Shown: positions 23,257 to 32,451 of the stretch, in pieces
How positions within the stretch are numbered: position 1 is the stretch's first letter
How the letters are laid out: each line of letters begins with the position of its first letter
Source: Candidatus Amesbacteria bacterium
Lineage (GTDB): Bacteria > Patescibacteriota > Microgenomatia > CAZETR01 > Amesbacteraceae
Assembly (NCBI GenBank): GCA_027331445.1
Contig: DAHWUD010000010.1
Location: forward strand, 1 to 37,612
Direction of reading: 5' to 3'
Length of the DNA stretch: 37,612 nt
Position numbers and translations under genes: made by a program
Notes under the pieces: generated by a model
What the model saw: only the letters and a program-made list of their open reading frames with translations
Databases searched by the model: none
Told to the model about the DNA's origin: nothing

Positions 23257-23439
23257 ATGCCCTTTCCCAAATTAACCCGAAGCCAGCAGTCGGATACCTG
23301 GCAGTATCATCCCTGGGTCATTCAGGACTTGTTTCTAGTCGTCTCGATAGGAAAAAAGGTCCTACAGAGGCGTACAGGGGTTTATAAGGATGCGTATCAG
23401 CTAAAAATTACAAACCACAACGATAAGGAAAATAATTAA
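23257..23439 (+). CDS. Small ORF 2 of the Xer operon (60 aa, unknown)
   Basis: A 60-residue frame (MPFPKLTRSQQSDTWQYHPW, then VIQDLFLVVSIGKKVLQRRT). Its TAA overlaps the ATG of the recombinase gene by one base (TAATG), a typical coupling arrangement. Basic and aromatic, with no recognised motif. Confidence 0.5.
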   Translation: MPFPKLTRSQQSDTWQYHPWVIQDLFLVVSIGKKVLQRRTGVYKDAYQLKITNHNDKENN

Positions 23440-24383
23440 TGGACAACAATCATGACTTTCAATTGCCGGAAAAAGATGAATTTTTGTTGTATTTGAAAGT
23501 TCAAAATTACAGTTTGGAAACTCTTTATAACTACGAACACGATTTAAAACAATTTGAGGTTTTTATGACAGAAATGGGCTTTGGAAAAATCGACAAACAG
23601 GTGATTAATGAATTTAAGGGTTACTTAGTAAGCAGGGACCGGAAACAGCCGATTACGGGCCTTACAGCGCCTAATAAGCTTGGTCCGGGTAGTGTAAATC
23701 GCTGTCTTTCCTGTCTGAGAACGTATTTTAAGTATTTGATAGAAATGGACAAGCCGGTGCCTTTGCCGCCTGACGCCATAAAGATGGTTAAGGCAGATAA
23801 AAAACATGGTCAGGTGGCGGAACTATCGGAGCTCGTAAAATTAATTGAATCTCCGACCTCCTTGGAAAAAAATGAACTCGTGGGCCTTCGAAACCGGGCG
23901 ATGCTGGAAGTGCTTTTAGCATCAGGGATGCGGATTTCCGAACTGGTGTCACTTAATAAAAACCAGATAGACGAAACGGGGCGGATTTTTATTAAGGGCA
24001 AAGGGCGCAAGGAAAGGTTTGTCTATTTGACGCCGCGGGCCCTCTCTTGGGTCAACCAATACTTGACCCGAAGGCCGGAAGCGGTGCCGGCCTTGTGGGT
24101 GCCGTATCGGGGATCGCGGGCCGGGAAGTCTATCCGCCGGGTGTCGCCAAATTATCTACAGGCAAAAATCAAAGAGTACCGCGAAAAATTGCGGATCAAT
24201 GTGCCCACGTCTGCGCATTCACTACGGCACGGGTTTGCGACATACCTGGCCGAATCCGGAGCCAATCCGGCGGCGATCCAGGTACTTTTAGGCCATGAGT
24301 CACTCGATACCACGACCAGATATGTACATGCATCGGACAAATTTGCCGAGGAGACACACCATAAATATCATCCGGTTAAGTAG
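23439..24383 (+). CDS. Xer-type tyrosine recombinase
   Basis: A site-specific recombinase, probably for chromosome dimer resolution. The 314-residue protein has an N-terminal SAM-like core-binding domain (~10-105; FLLYLKVQNYSLETLYNYEHD) and a catalytic domain with Arg165 (ASGMRISELV), the lysine of GKGRKER, His260-x-x-Arg263 (HSLRHGFATYL), His286 (LLGHES) and nucleophile Tyr295 (TTRYVHAS). Spacings equal those of XerC/XerD (26 from His to His, 35 from His to Tyr). The operon with two small ORFs is unusual. Only one Xer gene is in the window, so whether it is XerC, XerD or a single-recombinase system is open. It overlaps the convergent gene by 8 nt. Confidence 0.92.
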   Translation: MDNNHDFQLPEKDEFLLYLKVQNYSLETLYNYEHDLKQFEVFMTEMGFGKIDKQVINEFKGYLVSRDRKQPITGLTAPNKLGPGSVNRCLSCLRTYFKYLIEMDKPVPLPPDAIKMVKADKKHGQVAELSELVKLIESPTSLEKNELVGLRNRAMLEVLLASGMRISELVSLNKNQIDETGRIFIKGKGRKERFVYLTPRALSWVNQYLTRRPEAVPALWVPYRGSRAGKSIRRVSPNYLQAKIKEYREKLRINVPTSAHSLRHGFATYLAESGANPAAIQVLLGHESLDTTTRYVHASDKFAEETHHKYHPVK

Positions 24384-24740: not shown

Positions 24741-25736
24741 ATGGCGCTTAAAAAAATTGCGGTGATTTATAACATTGTGGAAGAAAAATCGGATGCAGCT
24801 GAAGCCGACACGGTGGTCTCGGCGCAATGGGTAAAAGAAGTTTTGGACAAATTGGGGTATGAAACCGAACTTTGGGGTATCGGAAAAAATGAAGTGCGGA
24901 AAGTGGCAGAAATAACCAGTGACTTAATCTTTAATTTAATTGAATGGACCGGGAAGGAGACTGATTATGCGCTGGCGGCAATCAAAATCATGGACGACCG
25001 GAAAATCCCCTATACCGGGTCTGATATTTTTGGGTATAAGTTGGTGAACGATAAAATAGATATGAAGAAAAAATTGGTGGAAGAGAAAATTCCCACGCCG
25101 GTGTACCAGATATTTGAGACGGGTGAAGAAAAAATTGAGGCACTCCCCTATCCGGTGATTGTTAAACCGGCAAAAGAACATTGCGGAGTGGGTTTGGATC
25201 AAATGAGTGTGGCAGAAAACGACGAGGAATTAAAAAAATTGGTGTCAGTAAAAATCAGGCAATTCAGACAGCTGGTGTTGGCAGAACAATTTATTGAAGG
25301 CCGGGAATTTCATGTCTCAATTCTGGAAAAAAACGGTCGACCCTGGGTGTTACCGGCGGCGGAAGTGGTGTTTGAAAATCATCCGGGATACCGGCACGTG
25401 CTGACTTATGTCGGCAAGTGGGTAGATAAGGAAGAAGAATATAAATACACGTCAATGCGGGTGGCCGAGATTTCACCCGAGGTGAAGGAAATGATAAATA
25501 GCATAGCTACTACGGCCTATATTCATTTGGGAGGAAGAGATTACCCGCGACTGGATATGCGATATGACGGAAAAAATTTGTGGGTGCTGGAAATTAATAA
25601 TAATCCAGGGATAGATTATGACAATGACAGCGGAATCGGAGTTTCGGCCAGGGCGGCAAAACTAACCGCCCCGCAATTAATTGATCATATTGTGAGGAAT
25701 TGTTGGTGGAGATTTAATAATTTGAAAAATAAATAA
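24741..25736 (+). CDS. ATP-grasp ligase, D-Ala-D-Ala-ligase-like (first of two)
   Basis: A 331-residue ATP-grasp enzyme of the D-alanine-D-alanine ligase group, which joins a carboxylate to an amine with ATP. The N-terminal preATP domain (~1-110) includes DLIFNLIEWTGKETDY, comparable to 'vFn..hG..gEdg'. The grasp core has VIVKPAKEHCGVGLDQMS (~137-154, glycine loop and Lys), LAEQFIEGREFHVSIL (~179-194) and PRLDMRYDGKNLWVLEIN (~270-287) followed by the metal ligands E-x-N in EINNNPG. Substrate-binding motifs of true Ddl (for example SSVGV, Y-x-x-K-Y) are not evident. It lies 125 nt before a second ATP-grasp gene and the SpeD-like gene. Confidence 0.85.
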   Translation: MALKKIAVIYNIVEEKSDAAEADTVVSAQWVKEVLDKLGYETELWGIGKNEVRKVAEITSDLIFNLIEWTGKETDYALAAIKIMDDRKIPYTGSDIFGYKLVNDKIDMKKKLVEEKIPTPVYQIFETGEEKIEALPYPVIVKPAKEHCGVGLDQMSVAENDEELKKLVSVKIRQFRQLVLAEQFIEGREFHVSILEKNGRPWVLPAAEVVFENHPGYRHVLTYVGKWVDKEEEYKYTSMRVAEISPEVKEMINSIATTAYIHLGGRDYPRLDMRYDGKNLWVLEINNNPGIDYDNDSGIGVSARAAKLTAPQLIDHIVRNCWWRFNNLKNK

Positions 25737-25821
25737 TATTTTGAATGTAAATTGAAAAGAATATTGCGATAAATGGACTAAAAAAAATTTGCATTTTGAT
25801 ATACAATTCCGCAAACTGATT

Positions 25822-25849
25822 TTGATACTAATAGTTATTGTTTTATACA
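25822..25849 (+). promoter_or_regulatory. Possible promoter before the second ATP-grasp gene
   Basis: TTGATA (25822-25827), a 16-nt spacer and TATACA (25844-25849), 12 nt before the ATG at 25862. The whole 25737-25861 gap is A+T-rich. An AAGAAG sequence in the last 12 nt could act as a Shine-Dalgarno. Confidence 0.5.
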
Positions 25850-25861
25850 AAGAAGTAAGCT

Positions 25862-26911
25862 ATGTCTCCGTTAAAATTTGATTACCCAATTTCGGTGGCG
25901 ATTTTATATTTCGCCGGGGATCGTGAGGACGACGTGGATACTCTGGAAGCAGTCAAGGGAATTGAAGAATCATTGGAGCGCCGAGGACATATGGTACGGA
26001 AAATGGCGGTGACAAAAAAGAATTGGCGGAAAGCGGTGCAGATTCCCGGCCAAGTGGTTTTTAATTTGGTGGAAGATGATAAGTGGGATTTGTACATGAA
26101 GGTGGGCCAAAGATTGGAAGAGATGGGGCGGGCACAAGTGGGTCATGACAGAAAGTCGTTTCGGTATGTAGTGCACAAAGTGATGATTAAGAAACGATTG
26201 CAGAATGAAGGTATAAGTACTCCTGATTTTCGGATATTTAATCGCAGATCGAAAATTTCGCAAGTCCGGGGTTTGGAATTTCCTTTGATAGTCAAGCCGG
26301 CCCGGCAGCATGCCGGAATCGGTATTTCTCAGGATTCGGTGGTGATTGACCAGCAAGAACTGGAAGAAAGGGTGAAATATCTATTTGCAAATTTTCCAGG
26401 GAAAGTAATTGCGGAGGAATTTATTGAGGGAAGGGAAATTCATGTGACACTGATGGGGAATGGGAGGCATGTGGTAGCACTGCCCTATTGCGAAATCGGG
26501 TTTGGGGGGGAGTTTGCCAACAACTGGGCGGTGTATACGTATGATGCGAAGTGGAACAAGGGATCGTGGGAGTATTGGGACGCGCGGGTGAAAGCTCCAC
26601 CTAAAGTGTCAAGAAAGTTGGATGCCAAGCTGGAGAAAATAGCTGTGGCAGCATACAAGGCATTTGAGTGCCGGGATGTGGCCAGGATGGATATTAGAGT
26701 AGATGATAAAGAAAGGGCCTATGTGGTGGATGTAAATATGAATCCGAGTTTGAACTATTACGATGAGGAAGACGCGACTATTGCGTCGGTGTATGCACTG
26801 GGGTGGTCATATGATCAATTTTTGGAGACGATAGTGGCGATTACTTATAAGAGAAAATTCGGCAGACTGCCAGACCGAATCCGGGAGAGGCAGTTTTTGC
26901 TGGCAAATTGA
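25862..26911 (+). CDS. ATP-grasp ligase (second of two, divergent paralogue)
   Basis: A 349-residue ATP-grasp protein related to the previous one but clearly diverged. It has QVVFNLVEDDKWDLYMKVGQ in the first domain, PLIVKPARQHAGIGISQDS (~140-158), VIAEEFIEGREIHVTLM (~182-198) and RMDIRVDDKERAYVVDVNMN (~280-299). The usual metal ligand motif E-x-N is replaced by D-V-N-M-N. A long C-terminal helix tail (FGRLPDRIRERQFLL) is present. The SpeD-like gene starts 1 nt after its stop, so the two products are probably made together and act in one pathway. Confidence 0.82.
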   Translation: MSPLKFDYPISVAILYFAGDREDDVDTLEAVKGIEESLERRGHMVRKMAVTKKNWRKAVQIPGQVVFNLVEDDKWDLYMKVGQRLEEMGRAQVGHDRKSFRYVVHKVMIKKRLQNEGISTPDFRIFNRRSKISQVRGLEFPLIVKPARQHAGIGISQDSVVIDQQELEERVKYLFANFPGKVIAEEFIEGREIHVTLMGNGRHVVALPYCEIGFGGEFANNWAVYTYDAKWNKGSWEYWDARVKAPPKVSRKLDAKLEKIAVAAYKAFECRDVARMDIRVDDKERAYVVDVNMNPSLNYYDEEDATIASVYALGWSYDQFLETIVAITYKRKFGRLPDRIRERQFLLAN

Positions 26912-26912
26912 T

Positions 26913-27299
26913 ATGATCTATGACGACGGGCGAACGAATGATGAACAATTTGGTCAGGAATTGACCGTGGATTTGTATGAATGTGATCCGAAGAAAATCT
27001 CTGATGGAGCATACATTAAGGAATTCGTGGTCAAACTGTGTGATGAAGTAATATTTATGAAGCGGTACGGAGAGACGCTAATCCCCCACTTCGGTCATGA
27101 CAACCCGGTAACCAGCGGGTACTCGATGGTGCAACTGATTGAAACTTCTGCAGTATCGGCGCACTTCTCGGAATATAAAAGGGCAGTGTATCTGAATATT
27201 TTTTCCTGTAAGTGGTTTGATGCCAACCGGGCGGCCAGGTTTTCCAAGATGTGGTTTGGGGCGAAGAGAATGAAAAAACGGCTGGTGCAGAGAATTTAA
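26913..27299 (+). CDS. SpeD/AdoMet-decarboxylase-like pyruvoyl enzyme
   Basis: A 128-residue homologue of S-adenosylmethionine decarboxylase proenzyme, which self-cleaves to make a pyruvoyl group. In QLIETSAVSAHFSE and IFSCKWFD the putative pyruvoyl-forming Ser79, proton donor His84 and Cys99 keep the exact 5- and 20-residue spacing known for Ser63/His68/Cys83 of Thermotoga SpeD. The Glu before the serine is Thr (ETS), the His after it is Ala, and the AdoMet-contacting W-P-E segment is F-S-E-Y. The substrate may therefore not be AdoMet. SpeD homologues that decarboxylate ornithine or arginine are known. It is coupled to the ATP-grasp gene. Confidence 0.78.
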   Translation: MIYDDGRTNDEQFGQELTVDLYECDPKKISDGAYIKEFVVKLCDEVIFMKRYGETLIPHFGHDNPVTSGYSMVQLIETSAVSAHFSEYKRAVYLNIFSCKWFDANRAARFSKMWFGAKRMKKRLVQRI

Positions 27300-27317: not shown

Positions 27318-28115
27318 TTATTGCCTGGGGAATGAGTTAGACAGCTGTTCTTTTGGAGATAGGATGGAAAATTTCATATAAAAAGCTTTGATACCACGAT
27401 AGTTGGGAATGTGATTTTCGGAAATGAAGTGAAGGGCGGGGTTGTGTTTTAACATTTGTCTGGTATAGGGAAAGGCACTTTTTTGAGCTGAGGGCGGAAT
27501 GCTTTCTGGATCTACGGCGAAAGTGAATAAATTAACCGGCTTGGCATCCGGCTTTTTGGCTAAAGCCTGGCTGATGAACAGATGCATCAGGGAGGTACCA
27601 ATTTGTTGGCCGGGTTGGGATGTGGCAAAAGTATCAAAAACGAGGTCCCCTACTGCCGGTTCCGGGCCGAAATTCCCGTTGATGTCTAATCGTTCGGCCT
27701 TTGCAATTTCCCCGGTTTGGTAAGGGTAACCGATGATATATCCTACTAATTCCGGGTTTGAAGTGACAGGTTTTGGGTGGCCTTTTCTCCAGGCGAGGAT
27801 AACGGTGGCGTCTTTTTTACTTAATAAATCTTCAAAATTTTCAATGGGATAAGGCATCTCGTGACTTTGTTGGCTAAAGACGGGGTGCTCGATTGAGTTG
27901 TAAATCTTTTCAGCTAGGCTATTTATTAATCTCTGACTGTCTAAGGTTGAGAGGTCGACGAGTTGATATTCCACTTCATTTCCACGCTTAAATTCCTGAT
28001 CGGGTGACGGGGTCAGTCTATTTGAGTAGCTGGCAATTTGGGTGTAGATGCTATCGCCCGGAAATTGTCGGTCTTTGGGGGTGAGGACTGGATCGTGCCG
28101 GGGTTCGGTTGACAT
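27318..28115 (-). CDS. GNAT-like acetyltransferase-fold protein
   Basis: A 265-residue protein. Residues ~45-250 look like a GNAT fold: a VGYIIGYPYQTG strand, DLVFDTFATSQPGQQIGTSL with the acetyl-CoA-loop-like Q-P-G-Q-x-x-G-T, then LMHLFISQALAKK. The N-terminal ~40 residues are polar and disordered. The acceptor is unknown. It is the last gene of a minus-strand set (coiled coil, SIMPL, small membrane protein, this) and converges on the SpeD-like gene with 18 nt between them. Confidence 0.6.
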   Translation of the reverse strand: MSTEPRHDPVLTPKDRQFPGDSIYTQIASYSNRLTPSPDQEFKRGNEVEYQLVDLSTLDSQRLINSLAEKIYNSIEHPVFSQQSHEMPYPIENFEDLLSKKDATVILAWRKGHPKPVTSNPELVGYIIGYPYQTGEIAKAERLDINGNFGPEPAVGDLVFDTFATSQPGQQIGTSLMHLFISQALAKKPDAKPVNLFTFAVDPESIPPSAQKSAFPYTRQMLKHNPALHFISENHIPNYRGIKAFYMKFSILSPKEQLSNSFPRQ

Positions 28116-28467: not shown

Positions 28468-29214
28468 CTAACGGGTTTCGTAAGACAGAGTTAGGGAAGA
28501 GGTGATATCGGTGGAACCGGGCTGAACCTGAGTTCCCCCTCCCGCAGAGGCATTGACGGCGGCGCCCAGTCCCATCATGGGCAAGGGACGGATTTCGGGA
28601 GTGGAGGTTTCTTCGACATTGACCAGCCGGCCAAGGTTGAGGCCTGCGGCCTGGGCCAGGCTTTGGGCCTTGGCTTTGGCGTCCGCCACGGCCAGGTCCC
28701 GGGCTTGCTGGGTCAGCTGTTTTTTGCGGTCATCGTTGACCGTAAACTGAATGCCGCCCACGGTGTTGGCACCCAGACTGGTGGCGGAATCAATGACGTC
28801 ATTGACCCGGTCAAGCTGGCGCACGGTGACAGTCAAATTGACGGAGACGGAATAGCCGGTGATGCGGTTGGTGGGGGTCTGATAATTGTATTGGGGGTAG
28901 AGGGAATAGTTGTTGGTCACGATATCCTTATCGGCTACACCCAAAGATTTAATTTTGGCCGTGATGCTATTGATGATCTGATTGGCCTGAGTTTGGGTAT
29001 TTTTGACGGTCGGGCCGGTGGCATTGACGCCCAGGGTGACGATGGCAATGTCGGGGACGACGGTGACTTTGCCGTCACCGGAAACCGTGAACAAAGAGGC
29101 TTTTTGAGTGACGACGGAGGAAACGGGAAAGCCGGGAGTGTGACCGAAGAAGTACATGGCTGCAGCCCCGATGACGACGACGGAGATGATCAACTTGGCC
29201 GCAAACCGGAACAT
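28468..29214 (-). CDS. SIMPL-domain (DUF541) exported protein
   Basis: A 248-residue protein with an N-terminal membrane helix (AKLIISVVVIGAAAMYFFG) and a SIMPL/DUF541 domain. The domain shows FTVSGDGKVTVVPDIAIVTL, then GVADKDIVTNNYSLYPQYNY, ITGYSVSVNLTVTVRQLDRV and QARDLAVADAKAKAQSLAQA followed by AGLNLG. The family is typically periplasmic or surface-located with unclear biochemical role. It starts 4 nt after the coiled-coil gene's stop. Confidence 0.9.
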   Translation of the reverse strand: MFRFAAKLIISVVVIGAAAMYFFGHTPGFPVSSVVTQKASLFTVSGDGKVTVVPDIAIVTLGVNATGPTVKNTQTQANQIINSITAKIKSLGVADKDIVTNNYSLYPQYNYQTPTNRITGYSVSVNLTVTVRQLDRVNDVIDSATSLGANTVGGIQFTVNDDRKKQLTQQARDLAVADAKAKAQSLAQAAGLNLGRLVNVEETSTPEIRPLPMMGLGAAVNASAGGGTQVQPGSTDITSSLTLSYETR

Positions 29215-29218
29215 AACG

Positions 29219-29545
29219 CTAGTTTAACGGATTTTTGGTTTCCAGTCTAGTCAGGCGAATTTCCTGGGCGGCTTGTTCCTGCCGAAGATCCCTGACTGGT
29301 TTCGCAAATGATTTATCTATTTTGGTGAAAAGTTGACTTTTCCACTGGTCAAATTTTTTATCTTGTTTGTCAAACCGTTTATTTATTTCTTTAACCTCAA
29401 TTCTTAGCAGCTTGAGTTGATCATCTTGAGAACTTAGGTGTGTCTTGATAGAGAAGATATTCCATTCGATTTTTTCTAACTTGTCATCAATTAGCTTTAG
29501 CCTGTCGATAACGGGTAGAGAAGAAGAATCTTTATGAGGGGGCAT
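29219..29545 (-). CDS. Coiled-coil hypothetical protein
   Basis: A 108-residue, highly charged protein with heptads throughout (KLIDDKLEKIEWNIFSIK, LRIEVKEINKRFDKQDKKFD, QEIRLTRLETK), predicted to be an extended coiled coil. No membrane helix. Likely first gene of the operon with the SIMPL gene. It is A+T-richer than its neighbours. Confidence 0.6.
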   Translation of the reverse strand: MPPHKDSSSLPVIDRLKLIDDKLEKIEWNIFSIKTHLSSQDDQLKLLRIEVKEINKRFDKQDKKFDQWKSQLFTKIDKSFAKPVRDLRQEQAAQEIRLTRLETKNPLN

Positions 29546-29955
29546 GAGCAGATGTTAACACTGCATAACGGTTTGCTGTCAACCGGAACTTTCAGCATCC
29601 TCGTCCAGAAGGTGAACTATGCGTCGATGCATCGATGCATGATACAGAGGTTGGGGTTAGCGAGTGCAGGTGCCACTGCCAAATTCCTGTCTCTCGACTT
29701 TAGGGGTAAGGCCGAAAACACTGGCTTTGCAGTGGAAAATGGTTGTCGGAGCGGATTTGCGGAATTTCGCTATGAGGGCAATCAGGTTGCTTTCGGTCCC
29801 TTGCGATGTTTCATCTTTGGAATAGAAGGAACATGCGGTCGTCTTGCACCTGATTCGTTCCTTTTGGTCTAAGCTAGAGAAGAGTCCACTAAATTGAATT
29901 GTTTCGGCCACGTATCTTACGTGTAGGCTTCTGGAACAAAAGATGCAAGTTGGGT
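29546..29955. other. 410-nt stretch between gyrA and the coiled-coil gene with no confident gene
   Basis: Both strands have open frames here (29534-29872 plus; 29657-29911 minus, GTG start), but neither has a recognisable family or a convincing start signal. Visible structures are a copy of the TCGATGCATCGATGC repeat (29624-29646) and a perfect CACGTA-TCT-TACGTG inverted repeat (29909-29923). The minus frame contains SNLIALIAKFRKSAPTTIFH, which could be a decayed coding remnant. Confidence 0.4.
29624..29646 (+). repeat. TCGATGCATCGATGC repeat, copy A
   Basis: Twenty-three nt beginning TCGATGCATCGATGC and ending GATACA. It matches copy B (37108-37130) at 21 of 23 positions. The core is built of overlapping ATCGAT/ATGCAT palindromes. 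Confidence 0.7.
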
Positions 29956-32451
29956 CTACTTGGCCTCGTCTGAATCTTTGTCCAGGAAGGTGACGGCGGA
30001 GACGGCGTCACCTTTTTTAGAAAAGCGCATGAGGATGACGCCCTGGGTATCGCGGCCCAGCTCCGGAATATTTTTGAGAGGTAGCTTAATGATTTGGGCG
30101 GATTTGCTGGTTAAAACGATCTGGTCCACGGCTTCGTCAACGCCGACGCAGGAGACCAGATTTCCGGTCTTGGGGGTAAGCTGGGCGGCTTTGACGCCCT
30201 GGCCGCCGCGCTTTTGCAACGGCCACTGACGCACGCCGGTCCTCTTGCCCAGGCCGTTTTCGGTAACTATTAAAACGTCTTCAAACACTTTACGGCGCCG
30301 GTCGGCGGGGGCTGCCTTGGCGCTGGGAAAAACTTCCATGCCGACGACAAAATCGCCGGATTTGAGTTCGATGCCTCTTACTCCCATGGTATCTCTGGCG
30401 GTGGGGCGGACATCCTCTTCTTTGAAGCGCAGGGATTTGCCGTTGTGGGAGACTAATAAAATGTGGTCGGTGCCGGTCGTCGGCCTGACCCATTTGAGGG
30501 AGTCCCCCGTCTCCAGCTTGATGGCGATAATGCCGGATTGGCGGATGTTGGCAAAATCAGTGAGTTTACTCTTTTTGACGGTGCCGTTTTGGGTGGCCAT
30601 GAGGAGAAACTTGACGGGATCGTCCTTACCCAGAGCCAGGACGGACTGCAATTTTTCGTCGGGGGAAATATTGATAAGATTGACGACGGCCTGGCCTTTG
30701 GCCTGGCGGCTGCCTTCGGGCAGGTCGTAGACTTTGATCTTGAAGACTTTGCCGATCGTCGTAAAGAAATACATATCGTCATGGGTGTTGGCGGAGAGAA
30801 TATGGGAAATTTCGTCCTCTTCTTTAGTAGTCATGCCGGTGACGCCTTTGCCGCCCCGGTGCTGGGTGCGAAAGGCGCTGGGGTGCTGGCGCTTGATATA
30901 ACCGGTGGTAGTAATGGTGATGACGGTGTCTTCGGCAGGGATGAGGTCTTCCTCGGAAAATTCACCGATCTTGTTTTTGAAGACTTTGGTGCGGCGGTCG
31001 TCGCCGTATTTGTCTTTAAGATCAGCAATTTCAGTTTTGATGACGGAGAGGATTTTGGCGGGGTGGGCAAGCAAATCTTCCAGGTGGCGGATGAGGTCCA
31101 TGACGGCTTTGTATTCATCCTCGATTTTTTGGCGTTCCAGGGCGGCCAGACGCCGCAGCTGCATATCCAGGATGGCGACGGACTGGAGTTCGGACAGACC
31201 AAAACGGCTCATGAGGTTGGTTTTGGCAGTATCGGCATCGGGAGATTCGCGGATCGTTTTGATGACGGCATCCAGATGGTCCAGGGCGATTTTTAAGCCT
31301 TCCAAAATGTGGGCCCGGGCTTTGGCCTGGTTGAGGTCGAATTGGGTGCGGCGGGTGATGATCGACTGGCGGTGCTTAATGTATTCGGACAAAATTTGTT
31401 TGAGGCCGAGGGTCTGAGGGGTGCCGTCAACCAGGGCGACAAAATTGGCCGGAAAAGTAGTCTGCAGCGCCGTGTGTTTATAAATGTTGTTGAGAATAGA
31501 TTTGGGTTTGGCGTCGCGTTTGAGCTCGACGACGACCCGGATGCCTTCTCGGTCGGATTCGTCACGCAGATCGGAGATACCCTCAATTTTTTTGGTGTGT
31601 ACCAGATCGGCGATGCGGGTGACCAGCTCGGATTTGTTGACCTGGTAGGGAATTTCAGAAATGACGATCTGGGATTTGCCCGATTTGGTGTCTTCAATTT
31701 CGGCTTTCCCGCGGACGACAATGCGGCCGCGGCCGGTGGTATAGACTTCGGCTATGGCCTTGGCGTCGTAAATGGCGCCGGCTGTGGGAAAGTCCGGGCC
31801 TTTAACAAACTGCATCAGATCTTCGACCGTGGCTTCGGGATGGTCGATGAGGTAGGAAATAGCATCGACGACTTCGGAGAGATTGTGCGGAGGAATTTTG
31901 GTGGCCATGCCGACGGCGATACCGTCGCTGCCCATCAAAAGCAGGTTGGGAAGTTTGGCGGGCAGATAAACGGGCTCATCGTGAGTGCCGTCGAAATTGG
32001 GAACCATATCCACGGTCTGCTTTTCGATATCAAAAAGCATTTCCTCGGAAATTTTGGAGAGCTTGGCTTCGGTGTAACGCATGGCGGCTGGAGAATCGCC
32101 GTCGATGGATCCGAAATTGCCCTGGCCGTCTACAAGCGGGTAACGCATGGAAAAATCCTGGGCCAGACGGACGAGGGCATCATAGACGGGCATGTCGCCG
32201 TGGGGATGGTACTTACCGAGGACTTCTCCGACGACGGTAGCCGATTTTTTGTGTTTGCCGGAGGCTTTTAATCCCACGTCCCACATGGCATAGAGGATGC
32301 GGCGATGGACGGGTTTCAAGCCGTCTTTAACATCCGGCAGGGCCCGGGAAACGATGACGGACATGGCGTAATCCAGGAAGTTTTTTTGCATTTCCTGGGT
32401 GATCTCCACGGGTTGGACTTTGCCTATTTCCTGAAAGGGTTGGTCGCTCAT
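29956..32451 (-). CDS. gyrA: DNA gyrase subunit A
   Basis: The breakage-reunion subunit of gyrase. The 831-residue product has the catalytic Tyr126 in [12 protein letters not shown], the winged-helix segment [15 protein letters not shown] and six C-terminal blade repeats. The GyrA box reads QHRGGKG, marking gyrase rather than topoisomerase IV. The quinolone-region sequence is HGDMPVYD: the usual Ser (E. coli Ser83) is Met87 here, followed by Pro, and Asp91 is kept. It is separated from gyrB by hppA and a small gene. An AAGGTC lies just before the ATG. Confidence 0.97.

Follow-up and report, generated by a model that had tools for sequence, protein, structure and literature searches.

Two non-Ddl ATP-grasp ligases and a SpeD homologue kept in a row in a family of Patescibacteriota: a possible pathway to a putrescine conjugate

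We propose that three neighbouring genes of a Candidatus Amesbacteria genome form a small NRPS-independent pathway to a putrescine conjugate. We consider this quite possible, while stopping short of calling it probable. The genes stand on the + strand of a stretch of 37,612 nucleotides, which we call the window. The first, AG1 (24741..25736), encodes a Ddl-fold ATP-grasp ligase of 331 aa. The second, AG2 (25862..26911), encodes another such ligase of 349 aa that falls in a clade apart from AG1. The third (26913..27299) encodes a SpeD homologue of 128 aa that we predict to be a SpeDC, a pyruvoyl-dependent ornithine decarboxylase. AG1 and AG2 are separated by 125 bases of 23% GC; the TGA of AG2 ends at 26911 and the ATG of SpeD starts at 26913, a gap of one base. 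The original prediction described this row of two Ddl-type ATP-grasp genes and a SpeD, the last two 1 nt apart, and the open reading frames and Pfam matches agree with it. Promoters and terminators are no more numerous than in shuffled sequence.

The pathway would work as follows. The SpeD homologue would cleave itself at Ser79 (codon 27147..27149, + strand, aligned with Ser63 of T. maritima) to make its pyruvoyl group and, judging from its signature residues, would turn L-ornithine into putrescine. From the residues that AG1 and AG2 retain we infer the usual ATP-grasp chemistry, in which a carboxylate is activated by ATP as an acyl-phosphate and then coupled to an amine. One ligase may join an amino acid or another carboxylate to putrescine and the other may extend or cap the product. 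No substrate-binding residue identifies putrescine.

Both ligases match PF07478 (Dala_Dala_lig_C) well above the Pfam cut-off of 24, with 86.5 bits for AG1 and 92.4 bits for AG2, and the best matches of the predicted AG2 structure (mean pLDDT 80.5) are Ddl structures in the PDB. The NCBIfam models of true Ddl give them 125 and 115 bits against a cut-off of 243. They score 26.5 and 24.5 bits with the RimK profile, and AG1 scores 31.6 bits with cyanophycin synthetase; as profile scores only, all of these are below the Ddl-type scores. We placed the ligases in a tree of 111 rows whose canonical Ddl rows were drawn from the mur clusters of relatives. Canonical Ddl forms a clade with 100/100 support on a long branch of 0.91, and AG1 and AG2 lie far from it, inside a clade that holds only CPR sequences (100/99). 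AG1 joins its counterparts from f11, another family of the same class (100/97), and AG2 forms its own clade. The comparison with true Ddl that had been called for thus places neither ligase with canonical Ddl.

Our residue comparison uses E. coli DdlB, to which the N-terminal part of the ligases can be aligned only poorly. In DdlB numbering the ATP and Mg residues K97, K144, E180, E187, K215, R255, D257 and N272 are retained in both ligases, and E270 is retained in AG1 and is Asp in AG2. These residues, together with the Pfam and fold matches, put both proteins in the ATP-grasp superfamily. It is different for the residues that we take to bind D-Ala in DdlB, namely E15, H63, S150, Y216, S281 and L282. 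In AG1 and AG2, H63 has become Glu, Y216 has become Trp, S150 has become Cys/Ala, L282 has become Gly/Ala and E15 (EREVS) is lost, and Ser281 is retained in AG1 only; the Glu for H63 and the Trp for Y216 occur in nearly all non-Ddl rows of the alignment. We believe the tree position and the replaced D-Ala-binding residues rule out AG1 and AG2 as D-Ala-D-Ala ligases.

It could still be argued that the ligases serve the cell wall, either as a stand-in for Ddl or by making a diamine-capped D-Ala that enters peptidoglycan precursors. Their fold is that of Ddl, and putrescine or cadaverine is bound to peptidoglycan in other bacteria. In the window's genome we find murA, murB and a gene that by eye is murF (contig C22 of G000, L382), and no canonical Ddl, so a role in the wall has to be kept in mind. 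However, this genome is 93.9% complete and its Ddl may be missing from the assembly. Two relatives, G065 and G294, hold both AG1/AG2 and a canonical Ddl in a mur cluster; in G065 this Ddl lies between murB and murF. Since the D-Ala-binding residues are replaced as well, we regard a cell-wall role as very improbable.

The third gene matches PF02675 (AdoMet_dc) with 59.9 bits (Pfam, cut-off 25), and the NCBIfam equivalog model for AdoMetDC gives it 29.2 bits against a cut-off of 75.65. The fold of its predicted structure (pLDDT 91) clearly matches that of T. maritima AdoMetDC, with a TM of 0.77 by query and 0.84 by target, although the SpeD profile found no sequence match in the PDB. Li et al. 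(2023, PMC10407285) described SpeDC enzymes, SpeD-derived pyruvoyl-dependent ornithine decarboxylases that include one from the CPR Kaiserbacteria, and the discriminator is Gln, Thr, Phe and Tyr together with the processing Ser, His and Cys. By alignment the window's SpeD has Q74, T78, F85 and Y93 with S79, H84 and C99, and the close relatives examined have the same set. As a control we used the SpeD of phage phiN3, which is a bona fide AdoMetDC and is grouped with phage ODCs (PMC9992855). It has the Gln, Phe and Tyr in common with the window's SpeD, but its cleavage site reads D-S-H where that of the window reads T-S-A. The discrimination therefore rests on the Thr before the Ser and on the absence of His after it. 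We reject a bona fide class 1b AdoMet decarboxylase as improbable, on the missing E/D-S-H context and the score below the cut-off. The window's SpeD is probably a SpeDC, an ornithine decarboxylase, and so its predicted product is putrescine. The idea of a SpeD-derived amine keeps its footing in the signature of an amine-making decarboxylase; the amine to expect is putrescine and not decarboxylated AdoMet.

Other SpeD homologues deserve mention. A second paralogue in G288 (L255 6831-7208) has Ile for His84 and Ala for Phe85, and one in G295 (L254 5232-5588) has Ala for Phe85 and Phe for Tyr93; either may be inactive or have another specificity. In genome G164 (L030 5876-8730) three genes of one strand stand side by side: a SpeD whose signature is altered, a canonical Ddl and a gene that by eye resembles an L,D-transpeptidase. 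We do not count the SpeD-Ddl neighbours there as another trio, the SpeD being without the signature Phe and Tyr. SpeD homologues are common in IMG/VR contigs (L298-L377), and the Q..TS....HF part of the SpeDC signature occurs in 53 of 99 profile matches. A phage origin of the trio was considered and rejected: a ligase of the AG family stands beside SpeD in 0 of the 80 viral SpeD loci, and the phage records hold only a distant SpeD (28.7% identity).

The AG1-AG2-SpeD row is not chance, because AG1 and AG2 are side by side in 11 of the 14 genomes of the window's family and the whole trio is kept in 5 of the 14, which represent five genera (the window's own, G065, G288, G295 and G290). The frames of AG2 and SpeD overlap or stand 1 base apart in the trio genomes, and in G065 both junctions, AG1/AG2 and AG2/SpeD, overlap by four bases. 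The SpeDC of G290 has an in-frame TAA at codon 4 of the aligned start, with the remaining frame open. Genome G293 has the ligase pair with SpeDC on another contig. The contigs of G289, G291 and G294 stop at AG2 or inside it, so these three genomes do not bear on whether SpeDC comes next. SpeDC was not detected in G298 and G292 (94-95% complete), which keep AG1-AG2, so SpeDC seems to be optional; such relatives might obtain the amine from the host or by another route. The search for the same order in other CPR genomes therefore had a divided outcome. The order is kept within the family, but no trio was found outside it among 287 genomes of the phylum, nor among the matches listed in 374 genomes of the class. 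It is important to realize that CPR genomes are very small, so a three-gene row kept for a putative amine conjugate points to a molecule that these cells may need.

A tyrosine recombinase gene precedes AG1-AG2 in the family wherever the contig shows it, and SIMPL and gyrA are downstream in most of these genomes. In the window the recombinase gene is XerC/D-like (23439..24383, + strand); it is a constant upstream neighbour of AG1 in both this family and f11, and we place it outside the pathway. In G065 (L021 6233-6646) and G289 (L076 2453-2854) a gene that by eye looks SET-domain-like separates AG1 from the recombinase gene, on the strand opposite AG1. The trio had been described as A+T-richer than its surroundings. 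This is true of the far flanks, since the block has 43.6% GC against 55.2% at 5-22 kb and 53.3% at 28.5-37.6 kb, but not of the immediate neighbours, which are similarly low. The recombinase gene has 46.8% GC and the open reading frame of 265 aa on the other side (27318-28115, - strand) has 45.6% GC, so the dip spans roughly 22.5-28 kb and not the trio alone. The 265-aa protein is without a Pfam match and by eye is somewhat GNAT acetyltransferase-like.

The main rival reading of the row is that SpeDC is the cell's putrescine source only, that it came to stand behind AG2 through shared expression or historical chance, and that the ligases are unrelated to it. Published SpeDC enzymes do feed ordinary polyamine synthesis (PMC10407285), the two genomes that retain the ligases with SpeDC undetected speak for this reading, and SpeDC stands apart from the ligases in f11 and other families. 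Against it, the homospermidine-synthesis proteins PF01916 and PF03435 were not found in the window's genome. Spermidine synthase is absent from the window, just as the original prediction said, and elsewhere in the genome there are two SpeE-like, methyltransferase-fold proteins that are weak matches (28-30 bits; contig C2 of G000, about 29181-30985; L379, L380). With no homospermidine-type synthase found, it would be just as simple for the end product to be plain putrescine, which tells against the conjugate. On the other hand, other amine-forming enzymes recur as neighbours of the wider ligase family, which counts against unrelated ligases, and we consider this reading rather unlikely. The two SpeE-like proteins are encoded near serS and secA, and in other families of the class (L234, L235, L245, L247, L259, L260, L261) SpeE-like homologues adjoin AG-family ligase genes at the serS/secA locus.

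The history of the genes in f11 bears on how the row arose. The AG1 orthologue of f11 is at the same genomic place, in the order recombinase, AG1, C39-like gene, SIMPL, and SpeDC and a different ligase are located elsewhere in the genome. Two f11 genomes, G443 (L293) and G244 (L257), have an AG2 orthologue at other genomic places, nested inside the AG2 clade of the window's family, a pattern that suggests a lateral transfer from one CPR family to the other. With AG1 in the same place and SpeDC (and AG2 in G443 and G244) elsewhere, it appears that the genes were brought or kept together in the window's family. Strong AG1-type ligases are found in 22 of the 30 genomes with strong SpeDC among the 374 genomes of the class (Fisher p 2e-17), a value inflated by shared ancestry and based on counts read from tables with bit-score thresholds chosen afterwards.

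Related ligases occur beside other amine enzymes in other phyla. We scanned genomes with the AG2 profile and looked at the best 80 loci, which come from many phyla and include two of the window's own family (L099, L100). A ligase open reading frame was recognised in 75 of them, and 39 have a same-strand tandem pair. A KamA-family radical SAM gene lies within three genes of the ligase in 28 of the 75, often with a GNAT, and PvlArgDC, the pyruvoyl arginine decarboxylase, does so in 10, some of them with agmatinase and a deoxyhypusine-synthase-like gene. Within the same distance a GNAT lies in 31 loci, a zinc-peptidase-like gene in nine, a C39-like gene in seven, a deoxyhypusine-synthase-like gene in seven and agmatinase in five; all of these are raw counts and they are not independent. 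SpeD is beside the ligase in 0 of the best 80 loci. Library searches with one to three examples each bear out PvlArgDC, the deoxyhypusine synthase family, agmatinase, the KamA family and GNAT. Lysine 2,3-aminomutase is the best match of the KamA examples, yet they stay below its cut-off. For the C39-like protein of the Bacteroidota type Pfam gives nothing above cut-off, and the identification of the zinc peptidase is borderline.

The recurrence of basic-amine enzymes next to related ligases suggests, by analogy, that the ligases act on a basic amine. The 111-row tree sorts the ligases of the KamA and PvlArgDC operons by their position: those that come first make up one clade, and those that come second group with C39-linked ligases in another, to which AG1 and AG2 are nearer. 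These are relatives and not one-to-one orthologues of AG1 and AG2, so their support for the window's pathway is by analogy. The earlier idea that the decarboxylase feeds an amine to the ligases is partly supported, by the non-Ddl ligases, the family-wide order, the SpeDC signature and the amine enzymes beside homologous ligases; it is weakened by the pairs with SpeDC undetected and by a trio confined to one family.

The same neighbourhoods can be read another way, in which the ligases make an ordinary dipeptide or other short peptide, a peptidase encoded nearby trims or recycles it, and the amine enzyme is incidental. ATP-grasp ligases of the Ddl fold commonly join amino acids. A C39-like peptidase gene adjoins AG1 in f11 and SpeDC in G288, G290 and G295, and elsewhere in the ligase family some members have a C39-like or zinc-peptidase-like neighbour. 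But the window has no C39 gene, and the repeated KamA, PvlArgDC and SpeDC neighbours are left unexplained by a peptide product. We think it distinctly unlikely.

Returning to the putrescine conjugate, a wider version of the proposal can be stated. Tandem Ddl-like but non-Ddl ligases would be the core of a widespread, undescribed bacterial and archaeal pathway in which carboxylates are joined to a basic amine or a beta-amino acid, each lineage having recruited its own amine enzyme. This would be SpeDC in the present CPR family and PvlArgDC in deltaproteobacterial lineages (accompanied in some by agmatinase and a deoxyhypusine-synthase-like protein); Ignavibacteriota, Bacteroidota, Chloroflexota and some archaea would use a KamA-type aminomutase, often together with a GNAT. 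We offer this as a speculation with a real but limited chance of being right. If it holds, two unrelated pyruvoyl decarboxylases, SpeDC and PvlArgDC, are tied to the same kind of ligase, and a large Ddl-like family that is easily mistaken for D-Ala-D-Ala ligases gains a testable alternative role. We found no paper that links Ddl-like ATP-grasp pairs to SpeD, PvlArgDC or KamA. Some of the neighbourhoods may have been described earlier, for example in a 2009 survey of ATP-grasp amidoligases. The chemistry is of a known kind, and the wider pattern of ligase and amine enzyme is undescribed as far as the literature searched shows.

How the trio compares with known systems follows from the above. 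With canonical Ddl the two ligases have in common the fold and the ATP and Mg residues, but they differ in their replaced D-Ala-binding residues, their separate clade and scores far below the family cut-offs. The window's SpeD resembles SpeDC (PMC10407285) in fold, size, the Ser, His and Cys and the four diagnostic residues, and no canonical speE adjoins it; the published genes, however, cluster with hss, casdh/casdc or speD/speE, whereas the window's gene follows two ATP-grasp ligases. The AG-AG-GNAT-KamA and PvlArgDC-AG-AG-GNAT operons of other phyla likewise have non-Ddl ligases of this wider family in tandem next to a basic-amine enzyme, but the enzyme is another one, a GNAT adjoins, and the pair comes from two other clades. 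The nearest precedent in logic, though not in membership, is E-64, made by the fungal cp1 cluster (Nat Chem Biol 2025, PMC12568646). That pathway assembles a diacid, an amino acid and one of three amines (putrescine, cadaverine or agmatine) by means of an amide synthetase and an ATP-grasp enzyme; the authors were led to the cluster by a decarboxylase, which served them as a beacon. Both systems have two amide-forming enzymes, at least one of them ATP-grasp, with a decarboxylase. For E-64 it is an adenylating amide synthetase that attaches the amine, and the decarboxylase depends on PLP, whereas in the trio both ligases are Ddl-type and the decarboxylase is of the pyruvoyl type. The E-64 enzyme Cp1B shares no detectable identity with any other ATP-grasp enzyme that has been characterised.
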